This document shows positions 9,539 to 45,917 of a stretch of 46,398 nucleotides of DNA, in pieces (position 1 is the first letter of the stretch; every line of letters begins with the position of its first letter). The position numbers and the translations under genes are program-made. The notes under the pieces are model-generated. The model worked only from the letters and a program-made list of their open reading frames with translations, was not told the origin of the DNA and ran no database searches. Origin of the DNA: Bacillota bacterium (lineage in GTDB: Bacteria > Bacillota > Negativicutes > Sporomusales > CTSoil-080); assembly GCA_017889625.1 (NCBI GenBank), contig JAGGAD010000015.1, forward strand, positions 1-46,398. The letters run 5' to 3'.

Positions 9539-9544
9539 ACGCTT

Positions 9545-9636: not shown

Positions 9637-9670
9637 AAAAGTCTGTGAAAACAAAGTTTCACAGACTTTT
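9637..9670 (-). terminator. Terminator overlapping the pssA stop
   Basis: AAAAGTCTGTGAAA and TTTCACAGACTTTT form a perfect 14-bp stem with a 6-base loop and flanking T residues. On the minus strand it begins at the pssA stop codon. The symmetrical A/T tracts could allow use in both directions. Confidence 0.85.
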
Positions 9671-10211
9671 ATAAAGCATTATTATTTTTTGAGACTGAAC
9701 GTCGCCCCAACCACAGCTTAGGCACTCTGACAGCCAAAACCATCAGCGCCGCCAGCACCAACATAACCGTTGATTGAACAATTATTGGTAAACTTTGAGC
9801 CAGGTACGCCCATACCGCCAGCACGGCCCCAGCGAAAGTAATCGGCAGTCCAACATAATAACCTTTAACTTGAAAAATATTGAATTTAACTAACCGGACT
9901 AATCCGCAAAGCGGAAACACAGCTACTAAAAGGCACCCATTAATACCAATATTCACAAAATCCAAAAAATAAGCGACGGTCACCGGTGCAACGCCAAAAG
10001 AAACAAAATCAGAAAATATATCCAGTTTTCGCCCCGCACTGGCAATGTTCAAACGTCTAGCAATACGTCCATCAACACTATCAAACAACGCCGCTGCCAT
10101 AATCAATAATACCGCCATTTCCCGTTGATGGAGAAAAGCTGCCATAATCGCTACAATTCCGGCAAAAAGGTTAATCACTGTCAAGATATTAGGTACCCAT
10201 CTTCTCGACAC
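9669..10211 (-). CDS. pssA: CDP-diacylglycerol--serine O-phosphatidyltransferase
   Basis: Integral membrane enzyme making phosphatidylserine from CDP-diacylglycerol and serine. The 180-residue protein shows the CDP-alcohol phosphotransferase signature: DSVDGRIARRLNIASAGRKLDIFSDFVSFGVAP contains the D-G-x2-A-R-x8-G-x3-D-x3-D pattern. Several hydrophobic helices follow. MSRRWVPNILTVINLFAG is the usual N-terminus. It is downstream of ftsH by 62 bases and ends in a terminator. Confidence 0.95.
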   Translation of the reverse strand: MSRRWVPNILTVINLFAGIVAIMAAFLHQREMAVLLIMAAALFDSVDGRIARRLNIASAGRKLDIFSDFVSFGVAPVTVAYFLDFVNIGINGCLLVAVFPLCGLVRLVKFNIFQVKGYYVGLPITFAGAVLAVWAYLAQSLPIIVQSTVMLVLAALMVLAVRVPKLWLGRRSVSKNNNAL

Positions 10212-10273
10212 ATAATCACCTCTTTGATTTATTTTTCACTTTACCCAATACCTTTAGGTATTAATTATCTGCA

Positions 10274-12202
10274 TTAAATTTTCGGCCAAAATAAGTCATC
10301 ATCGCGCCGTTTCAATATAACAATCTTAGGCCCGGTAATCTCATCACCACCAGTAACCGCACTCGCAGAACTATCCGATTTCTTTTCATCTGATACATCA
10401 GTCGAAGCTTCAATACTACCTGTTTCAAGTAGGTTCGCCAATTCAGCGCCTTCAAGCGTTTCACGCTCGATCAAAGTCTTAGCTACTAAATGTAACTTAT
10501 CAATATTAGTATTTAGCATTTCCATTGTCTTGGTATAAGCATCATCAATTAAATTTTTTACTTCCTTATCAATAGCTGCAGCTACCTCTTCACTATAGTT
10601 GCGGTCACGCCCAATATCCCGACCTAAAAATACCTGATCCTGCCTGCGACCAAAGGTAATCGGACCAAGAGCTTCGCTCATACCAAATTCAGTAATCATT
10701 TTTCTCACTATTTCAGTGGCCCGTTCTAAGTCATTTTGTGCTCCAGTACTTATTTCTCCAAGTACTAACGCCTCTGCCACTCGCCCACCCAACAAAGTCT
10801 TAAGCTGATCTAAAAGTTCCGACCTTGTCGCGTAATAGCGATCTTCCTTAGGCAACATTAAAGTATATCCCCCGGCCCGCCCCCGCGGTATAATCGATAC
10901 TTTATGTACTGGATCGGTATGGGTCAGCATCATTCCCACTAAGGCATGCCCCGCTTCATGATACGCTGTCAGATTTTTCTCTTTATCGCTAATAACCTTG
11001 CTCTTACGTTCAGGTCCAGCCACTACCCGTTCTACTGCTTCTTCCATTTCAGCCATACCAATACGTTTTCTACCTCGTCTGGCTGCCATAAGCGCTGATT
11101 CATTTACCAAATTACTAAGATCAGCTCCGGTAAAACCAGGCGTACGCCGAGCTATAACATCAAGATCAACGTCCTTGTCTAACGGTTTATTTTTGGTATG
11201 AACTTTAAGAATTTCTAGACGTCCTTTAACATCCGGTTTATCCACTACTATCTGCCGATCAAATCGGCCTGGCCGAAGCAGAGCCGGATCAAGAATATCA
11301 GGGCGGTTAGTAGCAGCAATAATTATTATACCCTCATTAACTCCAAATCCATCCATCTCAACTAATAATTGATTAAGCGTCTGTTCCCGTTCATCATGTC
11401 CACCACCCAAGCCTGCACCACGCTGGCGTCCAACTGCGTCAATTTCATCAATAAACACAATACACGGAGCATTCTTTTTTGACTGCTCAAACAAATCCCT
11501 CACCCGTGATGCGCCTACACCGACAAACATTTCCACAAAATCGGACCCACTGATACTAAAGAATGGCACCCCAGCCTCACCAGCTACGGCTCGAGCAAGT
11601 AAAGTTTTTCCTGTCCCCGGAGGTCCAAAGAGCAATACCCCTTTAGGAATACGCGCCCCCAAATCATTGAACTTCTTCGGATGCTTAAGAAATTCAACAA
11701 CCTCTTCTAATTCTTGTTTAGCCTCATCAGCTCCGGCTACATCAGAAAACGTTACTTTTATCTTTTCCTCGCTATGCAGTTTTGCCCGGCTTTTGCCAAA
11801 AGACATCACCCGGTTCCCTCCACCCTGGGTTTGCTGCATGATAAAAAACCAAACACCAATTAAAAGCAACATTGGCAATACTGAAGAAAAAATTGCTGTC
11901 CACCACGGCGGTTGCGGTGGCTGTTCTGCCTTAATATCAACTTTTTTCTCCCGCAGCAAATTAATTAACGTTGGATCATTAGGAGCCACCGAAGTAAATT
12001 CCGGACCGTCCTTTAATTTACCGCGAATCGAGTTGTCAACAATAGTGACACCCTCAACCTTTTGTTCCTCCACATACTTCAAAAACTGAGTATAACTCAC
12101 CTCTTGCTTAGTTGTGGTACGAGACGAATAATATTCAATAAAAGATATTGCAATGATGATAATCAATAAATAGACACTCACATTGCGGAAAAATTTATTC
12201 AA
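10274..12202 (-). CDS. ftsH: ATP-dependent zinc metalloprotease FtsH
   Basis: Membrane-anchored AAA+ protease degrading misfolded membrane proteins and regulators; in sporeformers it also affects sporulation. It has 642 residues. Two transmembrane segments (about 8-25 and 102-124) flank the extracytoplasmic domain. Walker A is GPPGTGKT, Walker [17 protein letters not shown], and the second region of homology has [20 protein letters not shown]. The zinc site is HEAGH. It follows the usual hpt-ftsH order and is separated from hpt by 148 bases, where its own promoter may lie. Confidence 0.98.
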
Positions 12203-20600: not shown

Positions 20601-21419
20601 TTACTCTATGATACCTTTTTGTTCTCGATAAAGTTCAGGTAAGAAAGCTGCCAGGTTGGTATATTCAAACACATTATGCATTGCCAACCCCTTCGGTGCC
20701 ATTTCCGGAATTTTAATTCCCGGAGGAAGTAATAACTTTGGCTTTTTATCGACAAAATGATAACCAATCCAAAACCGGGTTCTAAACTCTACACCCCCTG
20801 GTATTTCTCGAACAAAATGGCACATAACAGCCGGGGCCTTAGGCGTTCCCGCCGGAGCATTTAATGGTGAACTTACACCATTCGCCGCCACTAACGTCCC
20901 AACATTAGGCGCCTTAAACCGTTTCATATCAAACCCCATATTCTCTGGTGTCTGAAAGCTTATAAAAATATCTTCCTTACCAGCGCCGACATCTTCCACA
21001 ACATGATGAGTCAAACCTTGAAACTTTTGCTCAACCGGACGTTCGGGGTCCAGAATTTTCTTACGCGCATCAGCATCAACAGCCGCACTGTAATGTCCCG
21101 CCGGCCACCAAATTTTATAGCGTAAATCTTCCAAGGCATGCCAGGCAAACCACCAATTAATCATCTCAACGGTTACACCAGGCATTTTAGTATGGTTCGC
21201 CGCAAACGCCGCGCCATTCGGTAAGATACACCAGCCAGCTTCGACCTCCATATAGCCTGGATTTAGCAAATCATTAATATTTTCCGGTAACAAAGCTTGA
21301 TCGGAGTCAATTGGCTTGTCCATTTTTGTCAGCAAACCGGCATCAGGTATCGCTGGCTCACGATAAAAATATTTAGCATATGGTTTAAGTTTTTCTTCAG
21401 CCGTTAATTGATTTTCCAA
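20601..21419 (-). CDS. PhlG/phloretin-hydrolase-family C-C hydrolase
   Basis: The 272-residue protein resembles the Zn-dependent family of 2,4-diacetylphloroglucinol hydrolase (PhlG) and phloretin hydrolase, which split a C-C bond next to a phloroglucinol ring. Candidate metal ligands occur in the family spacing: His109 (WWPAGHY), Glu142 (HHVVED), and His248/Glu252 (HNVFE); PhlG uses His129, Glu160, His270 and Glu274. No signal peptide, so cytoplasmic. It is the last gene of an operon with two ene-reductases, a combination suggesting breakdown of a flavonoid-like or acylphloroglucinol compound. The substrate is inference. Confidence 0.8.
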   Translation of the reverse strand: MENQLTAEEKLKPYAKYFYREPAIPDAGLLTKMDKPIDSDQALLPENINDLLNPGYMEVEAGWCILPNGAAFAANHTKMPGVTVEMINWWFAWHALEDLRYKIWWPAGHYSAAVDADARKKILDPERPVEQKFQGLTHHVVEDVGAGKEDIFISFQTPENMGFDMKRFKAPNVGTLVAANGVSSPLNAPAGTPKAPAVMCHFVREIPGGVEFRTRFWIGYHFVDKKPKLLLPPGIKIPEMAPKGLAMHNVFEYTNLAAFLPELYREQKGIIE

Positions 21420-21472
21420 CTTAATTCCCCCTCTATTTAGATATTATCTTTTTAAGGCTCTTTTTGTGACTA

Positions 21473-23434
21473 TTAGAGAATTGACATTGCTGCAACAAAG
21501 CCTTCACGAAGAGCTTCATATACCTTAGCTGCACGTACACAATCACCAATTTCATATACTGGCACGCCTACAGCAGCAGTCCTCAAACTTTCGGCTGTTG
21601 CCTTATTCGCCTGCATGCCTAAGGCATAAATCACAGTATCTGCCACCATAAACTCTTCTTTACCAGTTCTATCAACTACTGTCACCCCATTAGGTGCGAT
21701 AGCAGTACATTTCACACTGGTCCTATAATGTAACATTTTATCCATTTCATGTACCAACGCCAACCGATGCATCGGATAGCAATCCGGTGCCACCTTGTCG
21801 CCCATTTCAATAATCGTTACATTTCTCCCATGTTCTGCAAGATGGAGCCCGACTTCACAACCGACTAGGCCACCACCTACCATTATAACCCTTTGGCCTA
21901 CTTTGTTTAAATCGTCATAGACTTGCAACGCCTTTATTGCATTTTCTATTCCATTAATGGCTGGCATTATTGGTGCTGAACCTACCGCTAAAATCACCGC
22001 GTCTGCGCCAAAGGACCGAATATCTACTGTTGTAACTTCTTTGCCAAATACAACCTTAATATCGCGTTTGTTGACCCGCCGCACCAACAAATCCTTAAAT
22101 GCACGTAGATCATCTTTATGTGCATCAGTGTCAGTAAACTTCAACAAACCACCTAACGAGTCCGACTTTTCCACTAAAGTTACCTTATGTCCGCGATCAG
22201 CGGCAACAATTGCTGCCTCCATACCAGCAATACCGCCACCAATTACTAATACGTTTCTTGAGCCGCTTGGCTTACTATTTAATACATTTGTATCATAATA
22301 AAAGGCCTCAGGATTCACAGTACAACCAAACAAAGAAGCAAGATCATCAATATTATCCTCTAATGGCCCAGGGAAGCATTTATAACACCGTAGGCAAGGA
22401 GTAATATCCTCTGCATTGCCAGCTTCCGCTTTATTAGCAAACTCTGAATCAGCAGTTAACTGTCTAGCCAAGGCTACAAAGTCACATTTCCCTTCAAGAA
22501 TAAGCTTTTCGGCTAACTCTGGCGAATTTATTCCGCCAACTACGGCTACAGGTATTGAAACTGCTTTCTTAATTGCTTCTGACATTTCAGCATTTAAGCC
22601 GTGTGGTTCAAACATAGAAGAAAACTGTCCGCTTAAAATTGGATTACGGTAGAGACCAACTGAAACATGTATAATGTCTGCAAACTCTTCAACCATTTTA
22701 CAAAATTCCGTTACCTCTTCAATTCCCATACCATTCTCAATCCGTTCATCGCCACTGACGCGAATTTCAACTATAAAATCCTTTCCCATCGCATCTCTAA
22801 CACTTTTAATCAATTGAATAGGAAACTTTGCTCTATTTGCTAATGAACCGCCATATTCATCAGTACGCGCATTAGTCCGGGAAGATAAAAACTGATGTAT
22901 TAGCCACCCATGTCCGGCATGAATCATAACCCCATCAAATCCGGCTGCTTTCATAAACTTTGCACTAATAACAAAGTTAGCAATAACCTTCTGCATCAAG
23001 ACTTCATCCATTGCCTGGACTTCAACACCGTCTTCCCGCACATACCCCATCGGACCAATAGGATTTTTCAACCCTGGAATAAATAATTTTGACTCCCCAC
23101 AATGACATAATTCAATTAAAGCCATACCGCCATTACTCTTGATATTATCTACTACCTTTTTCAATTTGCCAAAAGCTGGATCATTATAATCAGTATAGTC
23201 GATTGGCGGAAACGGTTCCCGATTCGCATATTCAAAATCTACCGGAGTTTCTCCGATCGTGACTTGAGCATATCCGCCCTTAGCCCGAGCTTCAAACGCC
23301 TGAAAAAACATCGGTGATAGCGGTGGAAAAGTTGCAAACGTTCCACAATAAATAGGCGCAGCAATAATTCTGTTTTTATAAGTATGGGTCCCTACATTGA
23401 TTGACGAAAATAAATTTGGAAATTTCCTACTCAT
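21473..23434 (-). CDS. FMN/FAD/4Fe-4S ene-reductase (OYE / dienoyl-CoA reductase type)
   Basis: 653 residues with the three-domain layout of 2,4-dienoyl-CoA reductase, BaiCD and enoate reductase. An FMN TIM barrel (1-340) has HAGHGWLIHQFLSSR. A 4Fe-4S site has Cys347, Cys350, Cys353 and Cys371. An FAD domain follows (VIGGGIAGMEAA, about 397-408), then a pyridine-nucleotide domain (VMVGGGLVGCEVG-like). The aromatic after HGHG is Trp177 where family members usually have Tyr as proton donor. It lies between the second reductase (24 bases upstream) and the PhlG-like hydrolase. Confidence 0.88.
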   Translation of the reverse strand: MSRKFPNLFSSINVGTHTYKNRIIAAPIYCGTFATFPPLSPMFFQAFEARAKGGYAQVTIGETPVDFEYANREPFPPIDYTDYNDPAFGKLKKVVDNIKSNGGMALIELCHCGESKLFIPGLKNPIGPMGYVREDGVEVQAMDEVLMQKVIANFVISAKFMKAAGFDGVMIHAGHGWLIHQFLSSRTNARTDEYGGSLANRAKFPIQLIKSVRDAMGKDFIVEIRVSGDERIENGMGIEEVTEFCKMVEEFADIIHVSVGLYRNPILSGQFSSMFEPHGLNAEMSEAIKKAVSIPVAVVGGINSPELAEKLILEGKCDFVALARQLTADSEFANKAEAGNAEDITPCLRCYKCFPGPLEDNIDDLASLFGCTVNPEAFYYDTNVLNSKPSGSRNVLVIGGGIAGMEAAIVAADRGHKVTLVEKSDSLGGLLKFTDTDAHKDDLRAFKDLLVRRVNKRDIKVVFGKEVTTVDIRSFGADAVILAVGSAPIMPAINGIENAIKALQVYDDLNKVGQRVIMVGGGLVGCEVGLHLAEHGRNVTIIEMGDKVAPDCYPMHRLALVHEMDKMLHYRTSVKCTAIAPNGVTVVDRTGKEEFMVADTVIYALGMQANKATAESLRTAAVGVPVYEIGDCVRAAKVYEALREGFVAAMSIL

Positions 23435-23458
23435 AAGTTTTCTCCAGTCAGCTTTGAT

Positions 23459-25459
23459 TTAAAGTTCTACAGCAGTATCAAACCCAGCATGAACAGCAGT
23501 ATACACATTACCAACCTGTTTACAATCACCAATAATATACACTTCGGTTTCAGGTATCAGATGTCTTAGTTCAGCAACTTTTTCGCGGCGCGGTCTCATT
23601 CCCAAAGCCAAAGCTATCGTATCTGCCTCAATTTCTTTCCATTGGAATTTGGAATTAATTGTTTTTATCCCCTTATCGGTAACCTCCTCCAGTTTGGTAT
23701 TAGTTACAATACGAACTTTATGCTGTGCTAATAATGATTGTAAAGAAAACCTATTAATAAGGGACGACCCATTCAGTAACGCTTCCGGCCCTTGCATCTC
23801 TACCAGTGTTACTTCCTTGCCTTCCATCGCCAGCGCCAACGCAGATTCTGCCCCAGTCAGCCCGCCGCCAATAACAATAACCTTTTTACCAACCTCAACT
23901 CGTCCACAGTCTACATCGCCAGCCCAATGTACATGTTTCTTATCAATGCCAGGAACATTCGGAATAAACGGAGTTGCACCAACCGCAATAATTAATGCAT
24001 CAGGCTGTTCCTGTTTGATTTTGTCCGCCGTCACTTCAGTATTTAGTTTTATAGAAGCTCCACATTTCAAAGTTTGAGCAACAATCCATTCTAAATAGTT
24101 TTTAAGATCTTTTTTAAATGCAAGGTCAGTAGCATGACACAATGTTCCACCTAATTTAGCTTCTTTCTCATAAAGAATTACCTCATGTCCCCGCTCTACC
24201 GCAGTAAGTGCCGCCTGCATTCCAGCAGGCCCACCCCCAACAATAATCACCTTTTTCTTAACCTCAGCCTTAGGAATTTTACCGCCAAGATAATCAGTCT
24301 CACGGCCATTAATAGGATTCACCGCACAATGAGTCTTTTTGAAAAATGCCGACCGGCCGCAGCAGGTATTACAACGCACGCAGGGTCGAACATCTTCTAT
24401 TTTGCCAAGGACGGTTTTTCTCATAAATTCCGGGTCAGCCACAAAGGGTCGGGCCATTGCCACAAAGTCAACCAAACCACGAGAAAGAATCTCTTCGGCA
24501 TTATCTAAGGTCATAACCGAGCCAACCGCAGTTACATACAAATCATTTCCTACCGCTTGTTTTATTTCTTCAGCATAATGTATATTGGGCATATATGGAA
24601 TATACAGTGGCTGAATCATACGTTGAATGGTAAATGGATTAGGCAGCATACCTACCGAAACATGCAGAATATCAATTTTATCTTTTATCATTTTTACAAA
24701 CCGAATTACTTCTTCAAGATGCATGCCTTCCTCAACCAATTCATCAGCACTAATCCGGTATTCAATAATAAAATCTTCTCCAACTCTTCGCCTAACAGCT
24801 TCTAATAGTTCAATACAAAACCGCGCTCTATTTTCAAAACTACCACCATACCGATCCACCCGTTTATTTACATAAGGCGATAAAAATTGTCCCGGTAACA
24901 TACCGTGCGCCCCATGAATCATAACCATTTTAAACCCGCTGTCTTTGCAACGCCCTACCGCCTCAGCATAATCATGAATGGTTTTGTTGATAAGCGGAAT
25001 ACTCATTTCTTCCACTTCTGCTGGTGTTTTACCCTGTAGCTTAGAAAAATACTCATCAATTTCAGCCGGTTTTGGCGTTGAGCTAACAGGCTTTAACCCC
25101 TTACTAGCCAGATTGATTGAGTTGGAGAATCGGCCGCCGTGGTTTAATTCCACCGAAATAACTGCACCATATCGCTGTATTTCATCAGCTAATTGATCCA
25201 GGCCCATCTTTACATTATCATCGCCCAAATTGATTTGGCCTTCATGATCCATGGCATGCGTCCAATTTACTGCGGAATCTCCTACTGTAACAATTGCGGC
25301 CCCTCCTTTGGCAAAGGGTCGGTAAAATTCAATAAGTTCTTTGGTTACCCAGCCTTCCGGCGTAGCCATACAGGGAACCATCGGAGCCAGTTGTATTCTG
25401 TTTTTAAACTCTACCCCTTTAATGACGATGGGAGAAAAGACATTTTTGTATTTGTTCAC
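23459..25459 (-). CDS. Paralogous FMN/FAD/4Fe-4S ene-reductase
   Basis: 666 residues, same domain order as its neighbour: TIM barrel with MIHGAHGMLPGQFLSPYVN, Fe-S cluster motif PCVRCNTCCGRSAFFKKTHC, FAD motif IIVGGGPAGMQAALT and a second dinucleotide motif VIGGGLTGAESALAL. The usual catalytic Tyr after HGAHG is Met. It starts at GTG with AAAGGGTG seven bases upstream. It is the first gene of the operon and faces a divergent LysR gene that probably controls it. Two non-identical reductases suggest two successive or alternative C=C (or ring C-O) reductions. Confidence 0.88.
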   Translation of the reverse strand: MNKYKNVFSPIVIKGVEFKNRIQLAPMVPCMATPEGWVTKELIEFYRPFAKGGAAIVTVGDSAVNWTHAMDHEGQINLGDDNVKMGLDQLADEIQRYGAVISVELNHGGRFSNSINLASKGLKPVSSTPKPAEIDEYFSKLQGKTPAEVEEMSIPLINKTIHDYAEAVGRCKDSGFKMVMIHGAHGMLPGQFLSPYVNKRVDRYGGSFENRARFCIELLEAVRRRVGEDFIIEYRISADELVEEGMHLEEVIRFVKMIKDKIDILHVSVGMLPNPFTIQRMIQPLYIPYMPNIHYAEEIKQAVGNDLYVTAVGSVMTLDNAEEILSRGLVDFVAMARPFVADPEFMRKTVLGKIEDVRPCVRCNTCCGRSAFFKKTHCAVNPINGRETDYLGGKIPKAEVKKKVIIVGGGPAGMQAALTAVERGHEVILYEKEAKLGGTLCHATDLAFKKDLKNYLEWIVAQTLKCGASIKLNTEVTADKIKQEQPDALIIAVGATPFIPNVPGIDKKHVHWAGDVDCGRVEVGKKVIVIGGGLTGAESALALAMEGKEVTLVEMQGPEALLNGSSLINRFSLQSLLAQHKVRIVTNTKLEEVTDKGIKTINSKFQWKEIEADTIALALGMRPRREKVAELRHLIPETEVYIIGDCKQVGNVYTAVHAGFDTAVEL

Positions 25460-32541: not shown

Positions 32542-33459
32542 TTAGCCACCGAGTTGAGTATTTAATCCATAAGACTCAAATAATGCTTTTATTTTTTCCT
32601 GGCGTTCCTGTGGAATCGGCTGAACATTAAGTAAGTACTCTTTCCCCAGTTGTTCATATTTTACTTTACCATATTCATGAACCGCCATAATATCTACTCT
32701 GCGCACTGATTTTAACGAAGATAAAAGTTCGGCAATAGCGCGAAGTTCTTCTTCCGCGTCGTTATAACCAGGTATAACCGGTACCCTTATTATTATTGCC
32801 TTTCCCATAGCAGCTAAATGCTTAAGGTTTTTTAGAATAATTTGATTTGATACCCCAGTATTTTTCAAATGTTTTTGATCATTAATACCTTTGACATCAA
32901 ACAACAGTAAGTCCGCTTCTTCAAGCGCTTTTATGCCGTCCGACGAAGTAACATAGCCGCATGTATCAATAGCTGTGTGAATATAATTTTCTTTACACTT
33001 TCGAACAAGTTCAAGCGTAAATTCCGGATACCAAGTAGCTTCTCCACCACCGATGGTAACCCCGCCGCCCGACGAAGCATAAAAAAGTTCATCCTTTTTT
33101 AACACCGCAAAAAGCTCATCTACCGTGTAGTTCTCGCCGAATTTTTCTAGCGCTCCAGTATAACAGACGTCAAGACATTCCATGCAATTTGTACACAGCT
33201 TTCGGTCAATAATTAGGTTTACTTCCGGCTCCATCGTCACCTTAATTGCTCCGACCGGACAGACCTCTACACAATTTCCACATCCATTACATTTTCCTGC
33301 AGTTACCTTAAGTTCAGGATTAAACGCCTGCCCCTCAGGATTACAACACCATATACATTTTAGCGGGCATCCCTTAAGAAACACAGTCGTTCTGATACCA
33401 AAGCCATCAACAAACGATCCATGGATGATGTGAAATACCGGCGCTTTTAATTTATTCAT
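32542..33459 (-). CDS. Glycyl-radical enzyme activating protein (radical SAM)
   Basis: 305 residues. The radical SAM motif GCPLKCIWCCNPE (Cys-x3-Cys-x2-Cys) is intact. Two ferredoxin-like clusters follow (GKCNGCGNCVEVCPVGA and RKLCTNCMECLDVCYTGA), as in activases of non-PFL glycyl-radical enzymes. The SAM-binding stretch reads GGGEAT instead of the usual SGGEP. AGAGGTG precedes the ATG. It lies 15 bases after the glycyl-radical enzyme gene and is clearly its partner. Nothing in it looks decayed. Confidence 0.94.
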   Translation of the reverse strand: MNKLKAPVFHIIHGSFVDGFGIRTTVFLKGCPLKCIWCCNPEGQAFNPELKVTAGKCNGCGNCVEVCPVGAIKVTMEPEVNLIIDRKLCTNCMECLDVCYTGALEKFGENYTVDELFAVLKKDELFYASSGGGVTIGGGEATWYPEFTLELVRKCKENYIHTAIDTCGYVTSSDGIKALEEADLLLFDVKGINDQKHLKNTGVSNQIILKNLKHLAAMGKAIIIRVPVIPGYNDAEEELRAIAELLSSLKSVRRVDIMAVHEYGKVKYEQLGKEYLLNVQPIPQERQEKIKALFESYGLNTQLGG

Positions 33460-33474: not shown

Positions 33475-35841
33475 CTACAACTCCTCAAACTCAACTCTAG
33501 CAATAATATCATTTTGGAGTTCCGGACTAAGTTCGACATAGTAAGCACTATACGTTGCTACTCTGACCAACAGATCTTTATATTGTTCAGGATTAGCCTG
33601 AGCCGCTCTTAGTGTATCATTGCTAATAAAGTTAAATTGAACAAGATTCCCGCCTGTTTCGCAGAAAGTTCTAAGCAGTGAAACAAATTTACGCATTTTC
33701 GTTTCATCTTTAACAGCGTCAGCCCCAAAACGCATATTTAAGATCGAGCCATGAGTCAATTTTATCTGATCCAATTTTGCTACCGAGCGCATAGTCGTGG
33801 TCGGACCAGTCACATTCCGCCCCTGGTGCGGTGAAATTCCACCTTCCGCCAACGGCTCACGCGCTTTTCTACCATCCGGCAAAGCGCCAATTGCCCAGCC
33901 TAACGGTATATTACCGGTCATTGTAAGACAAGCGGTTGCACTTTTTATCCCGGCAAACGTTGGCTGGTTATCCTCAACATCACAAGCATACGCCAATGCC
34001 TCACGGGTTATTAAATCAACATAATCATCATCATTACCGAACTTCGGAGCACTTTGCAGAATATGACGAACATCTTCTGCCCCTTCAAAATCATTATTTA
34101 AAGCGTCAATCAATTGATCCATTGTAATTTTCTTATCATCAAATACAGCTTTTTTCACGGCTGCTAAGGAATCACCAACATTAGGCGCACCGATAAACGC
34201 TGTTGTATGAGTTGCATAAGGAACGGTTCCGCCCCAATTAATGTCAAGCCCTTTTTCAATACAGCCTTTATATAATCCGGATAATAACGGACACGGGGTT
34301 TGCGAATAAAGTTGCAGATCCACATTTTTATAAGCAAAACTAACTTGCATCAACGTCTCAACTTGTTTCTTATAGGCATTCATTACATCATCAAACGATG
34401 TAAATTTCCGCGGATCACCTGTTTGAGGCCCAAGTTGCTCGCCGGTCAAACGAGACACACCATTATTCAGGGCTAATTCCACCATCAACGCCAAGTTGAA
34501 TGATACCCCGCCAATATCATGCGATATAGCCGGAACCGTAGGATTGTGGCAACCAGTAGAAATATAGTCACGTGCATAATCGATTGGAATACCATTATAC
34601 AGCAACGACTGAATCGTGGTTTCATCACTAACAAATTTAAGTTTTCCCCTTAATTGTTTAGCAGTTTCACAAGCTTTTATTAAAAATCCTTCCGGTGTAA
34701 GTTTGTTAACTCGAACTACAATATCTTCAGCATTCAACCCAATTTCTCTTTCGGCGTCAAGTAAGAGATAAGACATTTCATTAACCGCATCTTTGCCATT
34801 TCGATCTACGCCGCCTATCGTTAGCCCTTGCATTACCGGATAACCGCCCATAAATGTAGCCACAATCCCGCCTGCTACATTGACAACCGCATTCATTTTT
34901 ATAAGCAATAGGCATAGCAATTCATGTGCTTTTTCCTTATTAATTTTACCTGCCGCCAAATCTCGTTTATAATATGGATTGAAGAGTTGATCCGCCCGGC
35001 CAAGGGTCATCCCGGCACCCCAGCCCTCATTCATAAGTATCATAAAAATTAACCACGCCGATTGTGCCGCTTCATGAAAATCGCGTGCCGGCTTAGCCGG
35101 TATCCAACTGCACATGTCCGCAATTTTCTCCAGCTCTGCTTTTCTTGTCGGTTCAGACTCATTTTTCGCCATCGTCAACGCTAAGTCAGCATACCGCTTC
35201 GCAAACATCCTAACTGCTTCAAAAGAAATTTTTATGCCATGATAAAAATGGTACTTATCGATCTCTCCTACTTTAGCCAAATCTACCTTTGATAAGGCTT
35301 CATCTACTTGTTTCTCAATTTCGTCAAGGCCCTTTGTTAATATACTTTCATAATCTGCCGCAACATGGGCAAAGTGATGTCCATTTTCACTAAAGCCCAT
35401 CGAGGTTTGAATAATATGATTAAGTTTTTGTAATTCTTGGGGTACAGTAGCCACCAGCTGATCATACAGCGATTTACCTTTCCAATAGGGAAGACATTCT
35501 TTGAGTTTGACCTTCTCTTCTTCTGTCAAAGGTGCATACTTATCCCATTCCCGTGTGGAAAAAGTTTCCATTTCGTCCAACGCCCATTTCCACTGTATCT
35601 CAGGTAACAGCGCAGCCCCGCGTATTTTACTTGTAGGCCAACCAGCAATTAATTCGCCATCCTCAATACGAATCGTCATCTTTTCCAATATTTTTTTCAG
35701 AGCTTTTGCTCTTCTAATTACATAAGGCTCTCCTTCCGTCTCTTTATATGATTCTGTCATATAATAAGCTCTTTCAGTACATATCTCCGGTGTTGTTACC
35801 ATTCTTTCCCGTAACTTTTTAATTCTTTCCTTTGCATCCAT
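33475..35841 (-). CDS. Glycyl-radical enzyme, PflD-like, with Thr at the radical site
   Basis: 788 residues, normal for the non-PFL glycyl-radical superfamily. The barrel and finger loops are recognisable: Cys431 lies in STGCHNP, GGISPHQGRNVTGPTTTMRSVAKLD is intact, and the C-terminal loop reads LLVRVATYSAYYVELS. Family members have RVxGYSA there; the Gly is Thr763 (codon ACG). The Glu two residues after the active-site Cys, shared by dehydratases, lyases and aryl decarboxylases, is Asn433. The reading frame is open throughout. Start 35841 has AGGAG eight bases upstream. A divergent LysR gene and the downstream activase complete the locus. Reaction unknown. Confidence 0.9.
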   Translation of the reverse strand: MDAKERIKKLRERMVTTPEICTERAYYMTESYKETEGEPYVIRRAKALKKILEKMTIRIEDGELIAGWPTSKIRGAALLPEIQWKWALDEMETFSTREWDKYAPLTEEEKVKLKECLPYWKGKSLYDQLVATVPQELQKLNHIIQTSMGFSENGHHFAHVAADYESILTKGLDEIEKQVDEALSKVDLAKVGEIDKYHFYHGIKISFEAVRMFAKRYADLALTMAKNESEPTRKAELEKIADMCSWIPAKPARDFHEAAQSAWLIFMILMNEGWGAGMTLGRADQLFNPYYKRDLAAGKINKEKAHELLCLLLIKMNAVVNVAGGIVATFMGGYPVMQGLTIGGVDRNGKDAVNEMSYLLLDAEREIGLNAEDIVVRVNKLTPEGFLIKACETAKQLRGKLKFVSDETTIQSLLYNGIPIDYARDYISTGCHNPTVPAISHDIGGVSFNLALMVELALNNGVSRLTGEQLGPQTGDPRKFTSFDDVMNAYKKQVETLMQVSFAYKNVDLQLYSQTPCPLLSGLYKGCIEKGLDINWGGTVPYATHTTAFIGAPNVGDSLAAVKKAVFDDKKITMDQLIDALNNDFEGAEDVRHILQSAPKFGNDDDYVDLITREALAYACDVEDNQPTFAGIKSATACLTMTGNIPLGWAIGALPDGRKAREPLAEGGISPHQGRNVTGPTTTMRSVAKLDQIKLTHGSILNMRFGADAVKDETKMRKFVSLLRTFCETGGNLVQFNFISNDTLRAAQANPEQYKDLLVRVATYSAYYVELSPELQNDIIARVEFEEL

Positions 35842-36004
35842 GTTCATCGCTCCTATCAAATTTATTATTTTATTGTGCTACTAAGTAAAATTAGTATTTA
35901 ATTATCAATTTCGTTGTTATATAATTCATAATTTACTATACTCTTAGTATAAGCAAAATATAAGTATCTGAATAATTGATTGTAAGCATTACCATTATAG
36001 ATTT

Positions 36005-36033
36005 TTTTTATCTTAACATTTGCTTATTATAAT
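36005..36033 (+). promoter_or_regulatory. Likely promoter of the second LysR gene
   Basis: TTTTTA (36005-36010), 17 bases and a perfect TATAAT (36028-36033) predict transcription from about 36040. That is downstream of the only canonical in-frame start codon (TTG at 36020) and just upstream of the ribosome-binding site at 36047. Confidence 0.5.
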
Positions 36034-36058
36034 TAAACTACACCTTGGAGGTGTTCTT

Positions 36059-36943
36059 ATCGATATACGACAACTACGATACTTTATAGCTATAACCGAA
36101 ACTAATAATTTTACTTTAGCATCGAAAAATCTCTTTATAACCCAACCAACACTTAGTCACCAGATTGCCGAACTAGAACGCCAAATCGGCGTTAAGTTAT
36201 TAGTACGAAATCGCCATTCCGTACAATTAACTCACGCCGGAGCTGCCCTTTTGAAAGAGGCGAAGGAGATAGTCACTAAAGCGGATGAAGCGGTAAAAAT
36301 TACCCGTCAAGCCGAAGCCGGAACCATTGGAAATATAAAAATAGGTTTTTTAGGAGCTTCAGAACGACGCTTTTTACCACAATTAATTGCTAACTTTCGC
36401 AAACGCTATCCTAAAATTTCCATATCCCTAAATCATTTCGACTCATTCACTACTTTAGATAGAAACACCTTAGACGGAGCTATTGACTTAGCCATTACTT
36501 TAAAAAGTACAGCGGAGTCCCTTACTACTATGAATTGGAAGGTAGTTTATACTGTTCCTCTGTCCCTGGTCTTTTCTGATAATCATCCTTTAGCAGATCA
36601 AATTCCTAATAATCTTGCAGTATTAGACCACGAAGCTTTTTTTTATGTCACGCAAGACCGTGGCTTAGCTCATACCCTAGAAGTTTGTACCAGACGTAAT
36701 ATTCATCCCACAATCAACTTAGTCCCCCATATTCAATCCGTACTAATGTCCGTAGAAGCGGGAGAAGGATTTTCAATTTTACCTAGATCCGTACCCGAAA
36801 CTTATGCCAGCCCGCTCCTTCGGTATATTAACATCGAAGACGACGATTCTTTTCTTGATGTAATTGTTGCCTGGAATAACAATAATACGAACCCTTCCGT
36901 TCCTTTATTCTTAACTGAGCTTGACAATATTCTTCCCCTCTAA
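36059..36943 (+). CDS. LysR-family regulator, apparent AUC start
   Basis: About 295 residues. HTH at the N-terminus (IRQLRYFIAITETNNFTLASKNLFITQPTLSHQIAELERQIGVKLLVRNRHSVQLTHAG), effector domain from GNIKIGFLGASERRFLPQLI. Alignment with the LysR at 25657 places that protein's Met exactly on the Ile codon ATC at 36059, which has GGAGG seven bases upstream. The alternative TTG at 36020 has no ribosome-binding site and lies upstream of the predicted transcript start. No in-frame ATG occurs until deep in the protein. Divergent from, and likely regulator of, the glycyl-radical enzyme operon. Confidence 0.85.
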   Translation: MDIRQLRYFIAITETNNFTLASKNLFITQPTLSHQIAELERQIGVKLLVRNRHSVQLTHAGAALLKEAKEIVTKADEAVKITRQAEAGTIGNIKIGFLGASERRFLPQLIANFRKRYPKISISLNHFDSFTTLDRNTLDGAIDLAITLKSTAESLTTMNWKVVYTVPLSLVFSDNHPLADQIPNNLAVLDHEAFFYVTQDRGLAHTLEVCTRRNIHPTINLVPHIQSVLMSVEAGEGFSILPRSVPETYASPLLRYINIEDDDSFLDVIVAWNNNNTNPSVPLFLTELDNILPL

Positions 36944-37060: not shown

Positions 37061-39445
37061 CTATTTCGGCATAACTTTACCAGTACCAGCGGTAGCATAT
37101 ATTTCCCCATTTAGCCAACTGTTAGCACTAAGAGTAGAGTCATAGTATATATTACCTGTACCCGTAATATTTGCAAAAGTTGCATCAGAATCACTAAAGA
37201 TTGTTAAATACGAGTCGCCAGTTACATTCCAACTGCTGGTTGCATCAAGTGTAAGAGCAATACTTGACGCCGTGCTATCGCCATTAATTGTGCCGGTTAA
37301 AGTTGAGCTATTCGACAAAGTCGCAGTAATCGTGCTAATACTGTCCGCAACAAAGTCTCCGACAAGGGTTTGGCTATCCGCAGTAAGAATCATATCACCA
37401 CCATTATCACCACTTGTACCCCAATCATTCGCCCCAACTTCTATCAAAATACCGTCCGTTGATGTCGTAATCGTTACATCACTTACTGCGAAAGTTCCCT
37501 TTGTATTTGTTCCATAGAACACTGGCCCGGCAGTAGCCGTTAACGATCCACCGCTCATGGTAAAGACGCTATTGCTCCCCATAGCCTTTTGAGAAGTATT
37601 GAATATTTGCACCCCAGCAGTAGAACCAGTCAACGCTGAGTCGGTAACGGTTATGGTATGTTCTACTGCACCAGCAGCAATAACAGCTCCCTCAGCAGCC
37701 TTTGATGTAATAGTGGCTCCACTTACCGTAATAGTGCCTGTTGAATATAAACCTGCCGAAAGACTGCCCGCTGCCGTAGCGGTTCCGCCTATAACAGTAA
37801 CCGCGCCAGATTCACCGTCAGTAGAAATGGCACTGCAATGCGCCCCCGCTGTTGAAATAGTAGCATCTTCAACTGTTATTGAGCCGCCATCCACAGCATC
37901 AACGCCATGGGCAAAATCACCAGCCGTACTAATTGTAACATCGGACAAACTGATTACTGAATCCGCCCCTATTGCATAAGCACCATTAGCCCCGTTGCCG
38001 GTAGTTGTTATTGTTGTATCAGAAATAGTTATCGTACTAGAGTCAAGCGCTATTACGCCGGCATTAAGACCAGTCGAGCTACTGGAGGTAGAATCAGAAG
38101 TAGCACCAGATGTTGTCACCGAGCACTCTGCCAAGGTTAACGTACCGCCACCGGTAACATAGATACCATACTCATCAGGTTCAGTAGCCACAAAAACTTC
38201 ATCAGTCTTTTCTACCGTACCACCATCCTGATAATACGCCGCAAAAGTCGGCGCTAATTTGCCACCATCAGTCAAAGTATACGTTTCTGCGTTTAGCCAA
38301 CTGTTAGCACTAAGGCTGGAGTCGTAATATATGGTATAACCATTGTCATCAATATTTGCCAACGTTGTATCACTATCACTCAAGGTCGTTAAATACGAAG
38401 TTCCGGTTACACTCCAGATGCTGGTCGCATCAAGGGTCAGCGCAATACTTGACGCTGTGTTTTCACCATTGATTGTACCAGTAAGAGTGGAGCTATTTTG
38501 CAAGGTAAGACTAATCGTACTGACCGCATCAGCCACTACATCGCCGGTAAGGGTTTGACTATCAGCCGTAAAGGTTACGTCTGCGCCGTTTTCTCCTTCC
38601 GTACCCCAGTTATCCGCACTGGCCTTCAAAATTACTCCCGAAGCAGCAGTAGCATCTACGTCGGTCAGCTTAACTACCGCCGTAGTATTCGTACTGTAAA
38701 ATAGCGGTCCGACTTCAGCCGTCAGTGAACCGCCAGTCATCGTAAAAGTACCTGTCCCAACTTCAGCATCACCTGAAAAGCTTTGATAAATCATTGCCCC
38801 GCATTTTTTTGCCCCCGACAAAACAGTATCCGTCAGGATTATAGAGTTTAGCCCCTCTATAACAGCCCCCTCTGAACCAGTCGCAGAAATCGTGGCACCA
38901 TCAACGGTAATTGTTCCTGTTGAATAAATACCTGGCGATCCTGATCCGGCTGTTGTCATAGTGCCACCGGTTGCAGTTATCGTTCCGCCTCCCCGGTCGG
39001 TCGCTAGGGCAGCACCACTATTACCACTCGTTGTAATGTCTACATCAGTAAGCGTTAACACCCCACCATAGGTAGCATCTACACCATGGCCTAATCCACC
39101 GGTGCAATCAATTGTAACATTGGACAAAGTAACCGATGAGCCTGAATCTGTCGCAAATACACCATTAGCCCCTAAACCACTCGTGGTCACCGTGCAATCA
39201 GATAAAGTTATTGTGCTGGCATCGCAGGCCAATACCCCAGCATTAAGACCATAGAAACTGCTATCATCAGTCGAAGTAGTAGCCCCAGACGTTGTCACTG
39301 AACAATTAGCTAACGTTAACGTACCGCCATCGGTAACATAAACACCATATTCATTAGTTTCAGACCCGGTATAAGCTTCATTGGCCGTAACTACGGTACC
39401 ACCATCCTGATAATACCCGGCAACTACTGAACTATCTGTACTCAT
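37061..39445 (-). CDS. Two-module beta-helix repeat protein
   Basis: 794 residues, rich in Thr, Ser, Gly and Asp, with many 20-25-residue rungs such as GVYVTDGGTLTLANCSVTTSG and GHGVDATYGGVLTLTDVDITTSG. This is the style of parallel beta-helix (pectin-lyase-fold) passenger or adhesin domains. It consists of two copies of one module of about 395 residues; the first ends TLTDGGKLAP and the second starts AAYYQDGGTV. No signal peptide, transmembrane helix, cell-wall anchor or autotransporter barrel is visible, so export and location are unknown. GGAGG lies eight bases before the second of two close ATGs. Confidence 0.75.
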   Translation of the reverse strand: MSTDSSVVAGYYQDGGTVVTANEAYTGSETNEYGVYVTDGGTLTLANCSVTTSGATTSTDDSSFYGLNAGVLACDASTITLSDCTVTTSGLGANGVFATDSGSSVTLSNVTIDCTGGLGHGVDATYGGVLTLTDVDITTSGNSGAALATDRGGGTITATGGTMTTAGSGSPGIYSTGTITVDGATISATGSEGAVIEGLNSIILTDTVLSGAKKCGAMIYQSFSGDAEVGTGTFTMTGGSLTAEVGPLFYSTNTTAVVKLTDVDATAASGVILKASADNWGTEGENGADVTFTADSQTLTGDVVADAVSTISLTLQNSSTLTGTINGENTASSIALTLDATSIWSVTGTSYLTTLSDSDTTLANIDDNGYTIYYDSSLSANSWLNAETYTLTDGGKLAPTFAAYYQDGGTVEKTDEVFVATEPDEYGIYVTGGGTLTLAECSVTTSGATSDSTSSSSTGLNAGVIALDSSTITISDTTITTTGNGANGAYAIGADSVISLSDVTISTAGDFAHGVDAVDGGSITVEDATISTAGAHCSAISTDGESGAVTVIGGTATAAGSLSAGLYSTGTITVSGATITSKAAEGAVIAAGAVEHTITVTDSALTGSTAGVQIFNTSQKAMGSNSVFTMSGGSLTATAGPVFYGTNTKGTFAVSDVTITTSTDGILIEVGANDWGTSGDNGGDMILTADSQTLVGDFVADSISTITATLSNSSTLTGTINGDSTASSIALTLDATSSWNVTGDSYLTIFSDSDATFANITGTGNIYYDSTLSANSWLNGEIYATAGTGKVMPK

Positions 39446-39534
39446 TACTCATTCCTCCTACTTTTATATAAAAAAAGACTCCCCTCTACATAGGCAGCCT
39501 TAGTCTAAGTGGACCTCTATTTATCTGTTATCTC

Positions 39535-40728
39535 TTACTGCGGAGTTAATTTACCGCCGTCAGTTAAAGTATAGGTTGCTGCGTTAAGCCAACTATTGCC
39601 ACTAAGGCTAGCATCATAATAAATGGTAAAACCATTATCATCAATGTTTGCCAACAAGCTATCCGCATCCGACAAAGTAGAAATATATGATGTACCGGTT
39701 ACACTCCATTTGCTTGTTGCATCCAACTTCACCGCTATTAACTTAGCTGTGTTAGCGTTATTGATAGCACCAGTTAAGGTACTATCATTTTGCAAAATTA
39801 CAGTAACTGAACTTATAGCATCGGCTACTACATCACCACTGATGACTTGAGCATCAGCAGTAAAAGTAACCGTACCACCGTTCGCGCCACTTGTCCCCCA
39901 ATCTCCAGCCGCCGCCTTAATAATTGTGCCTGATTTAGCAGTAGCTGTAACATTATTCAACGTGATCTCTGCTATCGCATTGGTCACATAGAATAGTGGA
40001 CCAACCTTGGCGGTAAGGTCCCCGCCAGTCATGGTAAAAGTTCCAGCCCCACTTATATCGCCTTGGGTGTTAAACAGCGATACGCCCCACCGTTTTGCGG
40101 CAGTAAGCGAAGTATCAGTCAAAACCAAGTAATTGGCGCCATCCATAGCGGCACCCTCTGCGCCGGTTGCGCTTATTGTAGCTCCTGTTACCTTAATAAC
40201 CCCAGTAGAGTAAAGACCTGGTGAAAGGTATCCAGAAGTTTTAGCCGTACCGCCATTTACCGTAACCGTACCGCCGCCCGTATCAGTGGCGATGGCTGCC
40301 GAGTGAGCACCTTTTGTGGATATAGTAACATTCTCGAGAGTCATTATCCCGCCATCAGTAACATCAACCCCATGGCCAAAATCACCAGTACATTTAATTG
40401 TCACATCCGTTAGACTAATCGTAGAGCCTGTACCAGTTGCAAAAATACCATTTGCACCTTCACCACTGGTTGTAACTGTGCTATCCGACAAACTTATAAC
40501 CCCAGCATCAACGGCTAAGATACCCGCATTAAGACCATATGAACTGCTATTGCCTGAATTTGAGGTGTCACCTGTTTTAGTAACCGTTGAATCGGTTATA
40601 GTCAGATTTCCTCCATCAGCGACATAAATACCGTATTCATCCGTTTCGGACGAAATAAATACTTGATCTTCAGTTACTACTGTACCACCACTCTGATAAA
40701 AAGCGGTCACTACTGTTGAACTACTCAT
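39535..40728 (-). CDS. Single-module beta-helix repeat protein
   Basis: 397 residues, homologous along its whole length to each half of the downstream 794-residue protein. It begins MSSSTVVTAFYQSGGTVVTEDQVF and ends TYTLTDGGKLTPQ, exactly one module. Rungs such as GLNAGILAVDAGVISLSDSTVTTSG indicate a parallel beta-helix. No export signal is seen. It shares the leader GGAGGAATGAGTAATGAGTA with the downstream gene, which supports duplication of gene plus leader. The 89-base gap between them has a possible weak hairpin followed by seven T. Confidence 0.75.
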   Translation of the reverse strand: MSSSTVVTAFYQSGGTVVTEDQVFISSETDEYGIYVADGGNLTITDSTVTKTGDTSNSGNSSSYGLNAGILAVDAGVISLSDSTVTTSGEGANGIFATGTGSTISLTDVTIKCTGDFGHGVDVTDGGIMTLENVTISTKGAHSAAIATDTGGGTVTVNGGTAKTSGYLSPGLYSTGVIKVTGATISATGAEGAAMDGANYLVLTDTSLTAAKRWGVSLFNTQGDISGAGTFTMTGGDLTAKVGPLFYVTNAIAEITLNNVTATAKSGTIIKAAAGDWGTSGANGGTVTFTADAQVISGDVVADAISSVTVILQNDSTLTGAINNANTAKLIAVKLDATSKWSVTGTSYISTLSDADSLLANIDDNGFTIYYDASLSGNSWLNAATYTLTDGGKLTPQ

Positions 40729-41808: not shown

Positions 41809-43134
<1,326 letters not shown>

Positions 43135-43155
43135 TTATTACCTACTTAACATGTC

Positions 43156-43452
43156 TTATATTTTCGCCAAAAATTGGTGTTTTTCCAGTTGTTTCGCCAA
43201 CGAACACCACGATCGTTTAGCAAATATCGTCTGCACACCTTGAACTTTAGCTTGTTCTTTAACATTTTTGGCAGTGCCGTGATTAACGAAGTCGGTCAGA
43301 ACCACCACTAAAGAAGTTGACCTCGGAATGGAGAACTTTTTCCGGTCGCTGACCATCCGCCCGGACATATGGTCAATATCACACATTCCATACATCTGTA
43401 AGTTCTTTTTAATATTCCCCAAGTGATCGGCACCAACAATCATGACTGACAT
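43156..43452 (-). CDS. DUF2325-like protein
   Basis: 98 residues from the ATG at 43452, which has AAGGAGGA directly upstream; a longer in-frame reading to 43602 would run through the nifB terminator. The protein starts MSVMIVGADHLGNIKKNLQMYG and contains LVVVLTDFVNHGTAKNVKEQAK and a C-terminal KRSWCSLAKQLEK, consistent with DUF2325, a small Rossmann-like family of unknown function. I recall such genes near nitrogenase or metal-cofactor genes. Probably co-transcribed with metY. Confidence 0.75.
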   Translation of the reverse strand: MSVMIVGADHLGNIKKNLQMYGMCDIDHMSGRMVSDRKKFSIPRSTSLVVVLTDFVNHGTAKNVKEQAKVQGVQTIFAKRSWCSLAKQLEKHQFLAKI

Positions 43453-43492
43453 TTTTATCCTCCTTCCGCTTTCTGGCTTGTAAAAAAACAAA

Positions 43493-43530
43493 AAAGGCCA
43501 GAACAGGTTCATTAACCTGATCTGGCCTTT
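43493..43530 (-). terminator. Terminator after nifB
   Basis: AAAGGCCAGA/TCTGGCCTTT with an inner ACAGGTT/AACCTG pairing makes a long stem, followed on the minus strand by TTTTTGTTTTTTT. It separates nifB from the DUF2325-metY pair, although it lies only 41 bases before the DUF2325 start. Confidence 0.88.
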
Positions 43531-43624
43531 AGTTTTTCTAATCAGCCGTAACAATATCTTGTTATATTTAACAATAACACTTATTATCGGTAATGTCAAC
43601 ATTATTTTTTCGACATATATACTT

Positions 43625-44908
43625 TTATGCCAACCGCCCTACCGTGCTTGGTGATTGATATAATTGATTTACTGCCTGCCTTAACCCATTTTCCACGGTA
43701 TCGCAATATTCCACACTTACAATACCTCGTATAGCAAATTTTTTCTTAGCGTGATAACCAATACGCATTGTCAACACCGCCTGACAATCAGAAAGAGCAT
43801 CAATAATTGCATCCCGCTTTTCTTCTCCGACATCACATGCCTCCATTCCTAAACAATATTTTCCAACTTGGCGACGCTCAACGATCTCAAAGTTCTCACC
43901 ATCACCCTCGTAAATAACGAATTCCGTGGCATGGCCAAAATGTAAATCTACCAATTTTCCATACTTGGTAGTTACCGCCACCCGGCAGGGTTTTTTTACG
44001 GTATTTTTCGGTTGCACTGTTGCGGGCGTACGGTTACACATCCGGAATTCCTGCGAACGATCTTCGCCTAATCGCCCAATTGCATCAGCCCGACATTGCT
44101 GGCAGTGACGCATTTGCCGAATATCCGCCTGGCAAATATTTCTTAGGTCGTTGATTTCCTTCATACTGGTTTGCGAAAAATATTCAAAAGCACTGCCTGG
44201 TGCAGGAATCAGCGGCATAATATTAGTGACGAAAACTCCCAGTTGTTTAACTTCCTTGACCACGTCAGGAATATGAGCATCATTAATACCTTTTATCATA
44301 ACGATGTTAATTTTGACCAGAACACCATGCTCGGTTAAGTATTTTATTCCGTCCAGTTGATTTTTAAGCAATATTTTCCCGGCCTCTGGACCGTGATAGT
44401 ATTGACCTTGGTAATAAATATGGTTATAAATTTTGGCGCTTATTTCCGGGTTAAGCGAATTAACAGTAACCGTAACATGGTTAATTCCAAGGTTTACAAT
44501 TTCCTGAGCATACTCGATCAGCATTAGGCCATTGGTTGATAAACAAAAAATCATATCTTCATTATTTTCTTTTATAGCCCTGATAGTTTGCTTCGTAACT
44601 TCCCAGTCGGCTAAGGGATCGCCCGGCCCGGCAATACCGACTACACTAAGCTCGGGAATTTCTTGCTTGACCCACTCAAATTTACGTTTAGCAAGTTCCG
44701 GTGTTAACACTTCACTGGTCACACCGGGTCGGCTTTCATTTACACAATCAAATTTTCGGTTACAATAATTGCATTGAATATTACACTTAGGCGCTACCGG
44801 TAAATGAATTCGGGCATATTTATTATGAGCATCAGCAGAATAGCAGGGATGTTTTTGAGTTTTTTCTAAAAGTTCCTGGTTAATAGCCCCTGGACAAACG
44901 CACGTCAT
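43625..44908 (-). CDS. nifB: Nitrogenase cofactor biosynthesis protein NifB
   Basis: Radical SAM enzyme making NifB-co, the Fe-S-C precursor of nitrogenase-type cofactors. 427 residues. The SAM motif is PKCNIQCNYCNRKFDCVNESRPGVTSEVLTP, followed by AGPGDPLADWEVT, and the Cys-rich end of the SAM domain (CQADIRQMRHCQQCRADAIG). A NifX/NafY-like domain (about 308-415, RVAVTTKYGKLVDLHFGHATEFVIYE) is fused at the C-terminus. It lies 133 bases after nifH. The presence of NifB implies that a nitrogenase or nitrogenase-like catalytic component is encoded elsewhere. Confidence 0.96.
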   Translation of the reverse strand: MTCVCPGAINQELLEKTQKHPCYSADAHNKYARIHLPVAPKCNIQCNYCNRKFDCVNESRPGVTSEVLTPELAKRKFEWVKQEIPELSVVGIAGPGDPLADWEVTKQTIRAIKENNEDMIFCLSTNGLMLIEYAQEIVNLGINHVTVTVNSLNPEISAKIYNHIYYQGQYYHGPEAGKILLKNQLDGIKYLTEHGVLVKINIVMIKGINDAHIPDVVKEVKQLGVFVTNIMPLIPAPGSAFEYFSQTSMKEINDLRNICQADIRQMRHCQQCRADAIGRLGEDRSQEFRMCNRTPATVQPKNTVKKPCRVAVTTKYGKLVDLHFGHATEFVIYEGDGENFEIVERRQVGKYCLGMEACDVGEEKRDAIIDALSDCQAVLTMRIGYHAKKKFAIRGIVSVEYCDTVENGLRQAVNQLYQSPSTVGRLA

Positions 44909-44952
44909 ACTTTCACCGTCCCTTCTTTTCCGCTTAGTTATTAACGTTTTTA

Positions 44953-44988
44953 ACTGAAGACTGCAGAATATTTTCTACAGCCTCCAGT
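44953..44988 (-). promoter_or_regulatory. Intercistronic hairpin between nifH and nifB
   Basis: As minus-strand RNA, 16-base arms pair fully if three G-U pairs are allowed (the arms contain ACTGGAGGCTGTAGAA and TTCTGCAGTCTTCAGT), with a 4-base loop. The plus-strand RNA would have mismatches there, so selection appears to act on the minus transcript. No T-run follows. It could stabilise nifH mRNA or reduce nifB read-through. Confidence 0.5.
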
Positions 44989-45041
44989 TTTTTTGATCCG
45001 CAACTTATCAGTCTCACTTCCCCTTTAGCGCTCGGCTCCAG

Positions 45042-45917
45042 TTATATCCCCGCAGCTTTGCCGCGTACTTCACCGGTTTCCAGCGCCAGCAAATGATCGG
45101 CCCATTTTGCCGCCCATTCCCGTAATTCTGTCGTATCTAACGGTGAGGGGACTTTAGATTCCGTGGTATCAATAATGCTTTGGGCAAGTTTGGTGTAGAT
45201 CTTAGCCTGCGCCGAGTTAGGCGCTGCTTCTACCGAGGTTTTGCCTTGCAGTTCAGCCTGAGTTACCGTAACTGACCGGGGAACATATTCTACAACCCGG
45301 GTCTTAGTTCTCGCTACAAAGTCATCGACAATTTCTTTGGCATAGGGAGCATTAATGGAATTGGCAATCAGCCCACCCAAAAGGGCGCCGCCGGAGTTGG
45401 AATATTTTTTAATGCCTTTAAACAAGTTATTCGCAGCGTATATCGCCATAAAGTCAGCGGAGGAAACGGTAAATACGTGTTCAGCGATCCCTTCGCGGAT
45501 GGGAACGGCAAATCCGCCGCAAACAACATCGCCCAAGACATCATAAATGATGACATCAAGATCAAGTTCTTCATACACTTTCAATTGTTTTAAAAGTTGA
45601 ACTGCTGTAATAATGCCCCGGCCAGCGCAGCCAACGCCCGGCGCAGGACCACCAGCTTCTACACAATAAACGCCGTTGAATCCTTTAAAAATTACATCTT
45701 CCGCTTTCACCTGAGTTTTTTCCCGCATGGTATCCAGTACCGTCGGAATATATGTGCCCCCCCGCAGGGTATTAGTTGAATCTGCTTTAGGATCGCAACC
45801 GAATTGCATTACTTTTAGACCAAGTTTTGACAATGCCGCACTGATATTGGAAGTAGTAGTAGATTTACCAATTCCACCTTTACCATAGATAGCAATTTGT
45901 TTAATTTTTTTACTCAT
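45042..45917 (-). CDS. nifH: Nitrogenase iron protein (NifH family), divergent type
   Basis: The ATP-dependent electron donor to nitrogenase-type proteins. 291 residues. P-loop [10 protein letters not shown] (11-20), cluster ligands Cys97 (GVGCAGRG, followed by Arg100) and Cys133 (DVVCGGFA) are present. It differs from classical Nif[22 protein letters not shown] and [21 protein letters not shown] replace standard segments. A C-terminal extension ([21 protein letters not shown]...) resembles what I recall for group IV/methylthio-alkane-reductase-type Fe proteins. A strong TAGGAGG site precedes ATG. No nifD/K in the window. Confidence 0.9.

Follow-up and report, generated by a model that had tools for sequence, protein, structure and literature searches.

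The window analysed here, a stretch of 46,398 nucleotides corresponding to contig JAGGAD010000015.1, carries on its minus strand an open reading frame (33475..35841, stop included) that translates into 788 amino acids without internal stops, as an earlier note on this DNA had claimed, and whose ATG start at 35841 is supported by an AGGAG ribosome-binding site 8 nt upstream (35850..35854, minus strand). The protein matches the two profiles of the glycyl radical enzyme (GRE) fold, PF02901 with 618 bits and PF01228 with 90.7 bits. Its C-terminus reads LLVRVATYSAYYVEL, and the radical loop within it, RVATYSA, presents Thr763 (codon ACG, 33553..33555, minus strand) at the position where a canonical GRE has its radical glycine. 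The cysteine loop, YISTGCHNPTVP (YISTGC431HN433PTVP), keeps Cys431 (34549..34551, minus strand), the putative thiyl-radical cysteine, which aligns with C433 of 1r8w and belongs to a column that is invariant among 24 aligned GRE-fold proteins, while alignment and mapping onto 1r8w place Asn433 (34543..34545, minus strand) at the Glu position of the eliminase CXE motif. Translation and alignment are thus in full agreement with what the earlier note read at these three residues. The score against the PFL2-3 subfamily (671 bits) is slightly below the cut-off of 678, and the protein lies far under the cut-offs of the equivalogs of known function, for example CutC, HypD, sulfopropanediol dehydratase and HPAD.

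On the same strand and 15 bp downstream lies a gene for a radical-SAM activating enzyme of 305 amino acids (32542..33459, minus strand), scoring 333.6 bits against PFLE_PFLC (cut-off 174) and keeping the CX3CX2C motif (KGCPLKCIWC) together with two ferredoxin-type clusters. The two genes form a unit with a divergent LysR-type regulator (36020..36943, plus strand), which is 50% identical to the LysR found beside a related gene on contig C35 of this genome and is the likely candidate for the control of the unit. Promoters scanned for around the locus were no better than those in shuffled sequences. Downstream of the unit are GlcD/LldR/LldP-like genes, and other parts of the window hold gene groups of their own. 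At 37061-40728 two right-handed beta-helix proteins, 794 and 397 amino acids long and both strongly repetitive, are encoded in tandem. In the region 20601-25459 a gene for a DAPG/phloretin-hydrolase-type protein precedes those of two flavoenzymes of the OYE family, one of which is closest to BaiCD; the group looks like a catabolic cluster for polyphenols or ring compounds. At 41809-45917, NifB-like and NifH-like genes (both above their NCBIfam cut-offs) lie beside an O-acetylhomoserine sulfhydrylase, an arrangement that to us recalls methylthio-alkane reductase clusters; no NifDK-like gene was seen from this cluster to the end of the window.

Enzymes of this kind have a precedent. Alanyl, serinyl and threonyl radical enzymes were described in 2024 by Fu et al. 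(PMC11528403), who reported 71 threonyl radical enzymes (TREs), and the protein of the window is a further member of this class. In the TREs of F. plautii, EPR revealed a C-alpha radical on L-Thr that is installed by the activase and requires SAM and a reductant, and among variants at the Thr site the one with Gly was activated, those with other side chains not (PMC11528403). The window protein has Thr in the RVxG[FYW] fingerprint, a mid-protein Cys, a nearby activase with CX3CX2C, and falls in a group of Thr proteins that is monophyletic. The published TREs generally come two per adjacent activase, which is not a defining feature of the class (PMC11528403), whereas the window has one TRE beside one activase. 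FpTRE1 and FpTRE2, although from another organism and in the two-to-one arrangement, likewise have Thr at the site of the radical Gly, a catalytic Cys, a dedicated radical-SAM activase and the GRE barrel. The distance between Cys and Thr is 332-333 residues in the TREs studied here and 333 in FpTRE1 (437 to 770). We infer that the window protein shares a clade with FpTRE1 and FpTRE2 from the Thr, this spacing, the pairing with an activase and the taxonomic neighbours. The alanyl and serinyl enzymes likewise combine a GRE fold with a radical residue that is not Gly and with a cognate activase, but use a residue other than Thr and are reported as separate clades (PMC11528403).

By analogy with the F. 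plautii enzymes, the activase would cleave SAM to give a 5'-deoxyadenosyl radical, which would abstract the C-alpha hydrogen of Thr763; the C-terminal loop would then store the Thr radical and transfer it to Cys431, whose thiyl radical would open the substrate inside the barrel. The earlier note had offered new radical chemistry as one option, which was right in kind, except that this chemistry had already been demonstrated for TREs in 2024 (PMC11528403). Its objection that activases abstract the pro-S hydrogen of Gly, which L-Thr does not offer, is true for the activase of pyruvate formate-lyase (PFL) but does not bind the activases of TREs. We hold with high confidence that the window gene encodes a genuine TRE served by a dedicated radical-SAM activase.

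The evolutionary behaviour of the Thr residue was examined among relatives. The orthologue of the same genus (L006 in genome G001, an independently assembled MAG) is 81% identical to the window protein and encodes the Thr by the codon ACC. Throughout 15 Thr homologues the residue is kept while its codon varies synonymously (ACC in seven, ACG in four, ACA in three and ACT in one). Comparison of the window TRE with L006 gave pN = 0.115 and pS = 0.789, with synonymous sites saturated, which bears out the purifying conservation claimed in the earlier note; the least changed segments were residues 401-450, containing the Cys loop, and 651-788 at the C-terminus, and the pN/pS ratio of the activase nearly equals that of the TRE. 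We reconstructed a tree of 32 GRE-fold proteins (16 with Thr and 16 with Gly) from which the Thr/Gly column had been removed, and in which Gly relatives were sampled modestly and FpTRE1 and FpTRE2 were absent. All 16 Thr proteins formed a single clade with support of 100/100, spanning several bacterial families, and all 16 Gly proteins fell outside it. In 28 genomes of the order, identity to the query was at least 54% for Thr proteins and at most 40% for the next proteins, which on reading have Gly. Presence of Thr in the orthologue, in two paralogues and in the whole clade answers the homologue search that the earlier note had called for, and Thr763 is a clade-wide, selected family trait. The motif is rare, being found in 3 of the 28 genomes of the order, 3 of 300 from the class and 4 of 150 from the family to which genome G305 belongs, and a pattern search of Oscillospiraceae-type genomes returned several TREs, of which none could be recognized as one of F. 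plautii. One further pattern match (L054 in genome G418; D-L-V-V-R-V-C-T-F) was set aside as it looks like a chance match.

The activases of TREs also form a single clade (100/100), on a long stem. The earlier note had stated that the neighbouring activase keeps its Cys motifs, and this holds with a refinement, namely TRE-specific changes, one within DGPG and another directly behind the cluster motif. In all 14 TRE activases the Pro of DGPG is replaced by Phe, Tyr or Trp (DG[FYW]G; DGFG at 33397..33408, minus strand, in the window), and an extra Cys follows the third cluster Cys (Cys39 in the window, where the cluster cysteines and the extra one span 33343..33369, minus strand). The 15 GRE activases aligned with them and E. 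coli PflA keep the Pro and lack the extra Cys. The activase of PFL uses Asp16 and Asn38 to hold its target, Gly734 (PMC9326890). In our alignment their counterparts in the window activase are Asp18 and Asn40 (PflA numbered without Met), which are flanked by the substitutions at positions 20 and 39. We hypothesize that positions 20 and 39 read the Thr side chain. When the activase motif was used to search 178 genomes it matched eight, and all eight contained a TRE, seven of them already known; the eighth (G724) has a TRE with RVATYAAY and a CTS loop, adjoining its activase, which the Thr pattern had missed. A further motif considered, GGGEA, was dropped as a mark of TRE activases, for SGGEA occurs both in PflA and in the TRE activase of G724. 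As judged from the sequences, the activase of the window belongs to a lineage that matches the TREs and has altered substrate-loop motifs.

These data allow us to weigh the other explanations of the missing glycine. The draft state of the source assembly (113 contigs) would give some room to an error of sequencing or assembly, or to a lone point mutation; nonetheless the change from Gly to Thr needs two base substitutions, and because the orthologue and the paralogues have Thr through other codons it is not an artefact of this kind, a reading to which we give almost no weight. Rescue by a small glycyl-radical protein of the GrcA/YfiD type exists for oxygen-damaged PFL, and the earlier note had suggested that such a spare part might restore activity here. 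The genome check that it proposed found no small glycyl-radical protein in the whole genome (98% complete, PF01228 search), all five matches lying in open reading frames of 656-934 amino acids, and GrcA models match the TRE with weak generic similarity only; this rescue is accordingly hardly credible. A catalytically dead or regulatory homologue that has lost its radical site, another of the options raised, would fit a protein that has neither the canonical Gly nor the Glu of CXE. It is nevertheless disfavoured by the fixation of Thr throughout a fully supported clade of several bacterial families, by purifying selection with pN lowest at the Cys loop and the C-terminus, by the dedicated activase with its co-diverged motifs and by the radical that the TRE class forms in vitro (PMC11528403), so that we regard loss of function as very unlikely and retain the reading of the protein as a working TRE.

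The genome holds three Thr proteins in separate places and two intact activases. Besides the window copy there are TREs at C84:9249-11609 and C35:30548-32902, each with an identity of about 55% to it. A fourth GRE of similar size (C60) is a normal Gly-bearing 4-hydroxyphenylacetate decarboxylase that scores above its cut-off. No activase adjoins the C84 TRE; the second intact activase, 75% identical to that of the window, lies about 36 kb away from it. In the segment L098 (G000 C84:38001-57000), positions 7123-10431 hold genes for an MFS transporter, a chemoreceptor-like protein and then this intact TRE activase, and the order in genome G004 is MFS, receptor, TRE and activase, the C84 region having the same order without the TRE. 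Beside the C35 TRE the activase is reduced to its last 65 residues. The C84 and C35 copies would hence need activation in trans. In L100 (G000 C35:29001-42511; 1339-3917 and flanks) the TRE and its LysR gene are flanked by prophage genes, terminase on one side and portal/major head on the other, and it is possible that this TRE is a phage-carried radical enzyme or the product of an insertion into a prophage.

Gene neighbourhoods of TREs vary. Some copies are near putrescine transport and aminotransferase genes; others are near an MFS, SLH-protein and chemoreceptor-like cassette in a 4-hydroxybutyryl-CoA/BKACE/butyrate region; and those of Clostridia are near UGSC-like proteins, aldo-keto reductases and flavoprotein reductases. 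SLH-domain outer-membrane proteins stand beside TREs in relatives, which would point to Negativicutes and away from Eubacteriales as the group of the source organism. Transport genes recur among the contexts compared and no enzyme is common to all of them, and we therefore propose no substrate. A syntenic catabolic region surrounds the TRE and activase genes on G004 C122 and G000 C84 (L049, L098, L103, L105 and L106), with BKACE, a carnitine-dehydrogenase-like enzyme, crotonase, acyl-CoA dehydrogenase and butyrate kinase, and its G004 copy includes two HpaB-fold (4-hydroxybutyryl-CoA dehydratase-like) genes.

The replacement of the CXE Glu by Asn433, pointed out in the earlier note for this protein, turned out to be general, as none of the 17 TREs found has Glu at this position. 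Their loops fall into four types: CHN (the window, L006 and L064), CN[ST] (C84, C35, G004 and L063, and nearest to the CTS loop of the G724 TRE), and CFI and CA[ST], both in Clostridia. Loss of this Glu is not exclusive to TREs, since some Gly enzymes are also without it. Within the same order there is a widespread group of Gly enzymes (L111-L119 and L130) with a GCVVPH Cys loop and no CXE Glu. A Thermoanaerobacterales MAG (L012, 3506-8335) has two adjacent Gly-type GREs with loops GCVTP and GCVEL, about 40% identical to the window TRE, in an arrangement that resembles the published TRE pairs. Residues that all TREs share and the aligned Gly enzymes lack include E372, A394, K400, T408, D442 (codon at 34516..34518, minus strand), I669, N676, T729 and F785.

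A structure model of the TRE (pLDDT 91.2, pTM 0.90) has as its closest solved folds the B12-independent glycerol and 1,2-propanediol dehydratases (1r8w, 5i2g and 9rcp; Z of about 51, rmsd 1.6-1.7 over 775-777 residues, 34-37% identity). These enzymes differ in having Gly at the radical site and in their pocket. Among the residues that we take to be catalytic in glycerol dehydratase 1r8w, H164 is retained as His159, E435 becomes Asn433, and H281, S282, D447 and Y640 become Ala276, Gly277, Gly444 and Leu639. CutC (choline trimethylamine-lyase) shares with the TRE the GRE fold, the GC loop and the pairing with an activase, but the TRE scores 548 against an NCBIfam cut-off of 1050 and is without the CXE Glu. 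The TRE has, therefore, the barrel of an eliminase and not its acid/base set. With the CXE base gone, together with most residues of the diol-dehydratase pocket, a reaction of the classical dehydratase or CutC-type lyase kind would be, on balance, improbable.

Whether TREs are nonetheless ordinary GRE eliminases, cleaving C-O, C-N or C-S bonds with another residue in the role of the CXE Glu, depends on how these features are weighed. In favour are the closest solved folds, which include hydroxyproline dehydratases besides the diol/glycerol ones, the preference of Fu et al. for eliminase-like reactions (PMC11528403), and two residues invariant in TREs, Asp442 and His159 (the counterpart of H164 in glycerol dehydratase), which could act as acid and base. 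Against it, GRE eliminases are described as conserving CXE (PMC7077986), which none of the 17 TREs carries, and the glycerol dehydratase residues H281, S282, D447 and Y640 are replaced as well. We consider elimination a serious possibility, at somewhat less than an even chance. More tentatively, we suggest that TREs may perform a reaction type that is new to the GRE fold, other than elimination, and that their activases may constitute a distinct lineage reading L-Thr, whose hydrogen geometry is opposite to that of Gly, through the aromatic residue of DGxG and the extra Cys at the SAM cluster.

Taking all the results together, TREs violate the rule that the GRE fold requires a glycyl radical, and the locus in the window provides an intact minimal pair of TRE and activase in a bacterial lineage other than that of F. 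plautii. The signature of the activase finds TREs in genomes, and its marks point to residues that may decide between the acceptance of Thr and of Gly. Since every TRE seen has lost the CXE Glu, the range of reactions to be considered for these enzymes becomes narrower.
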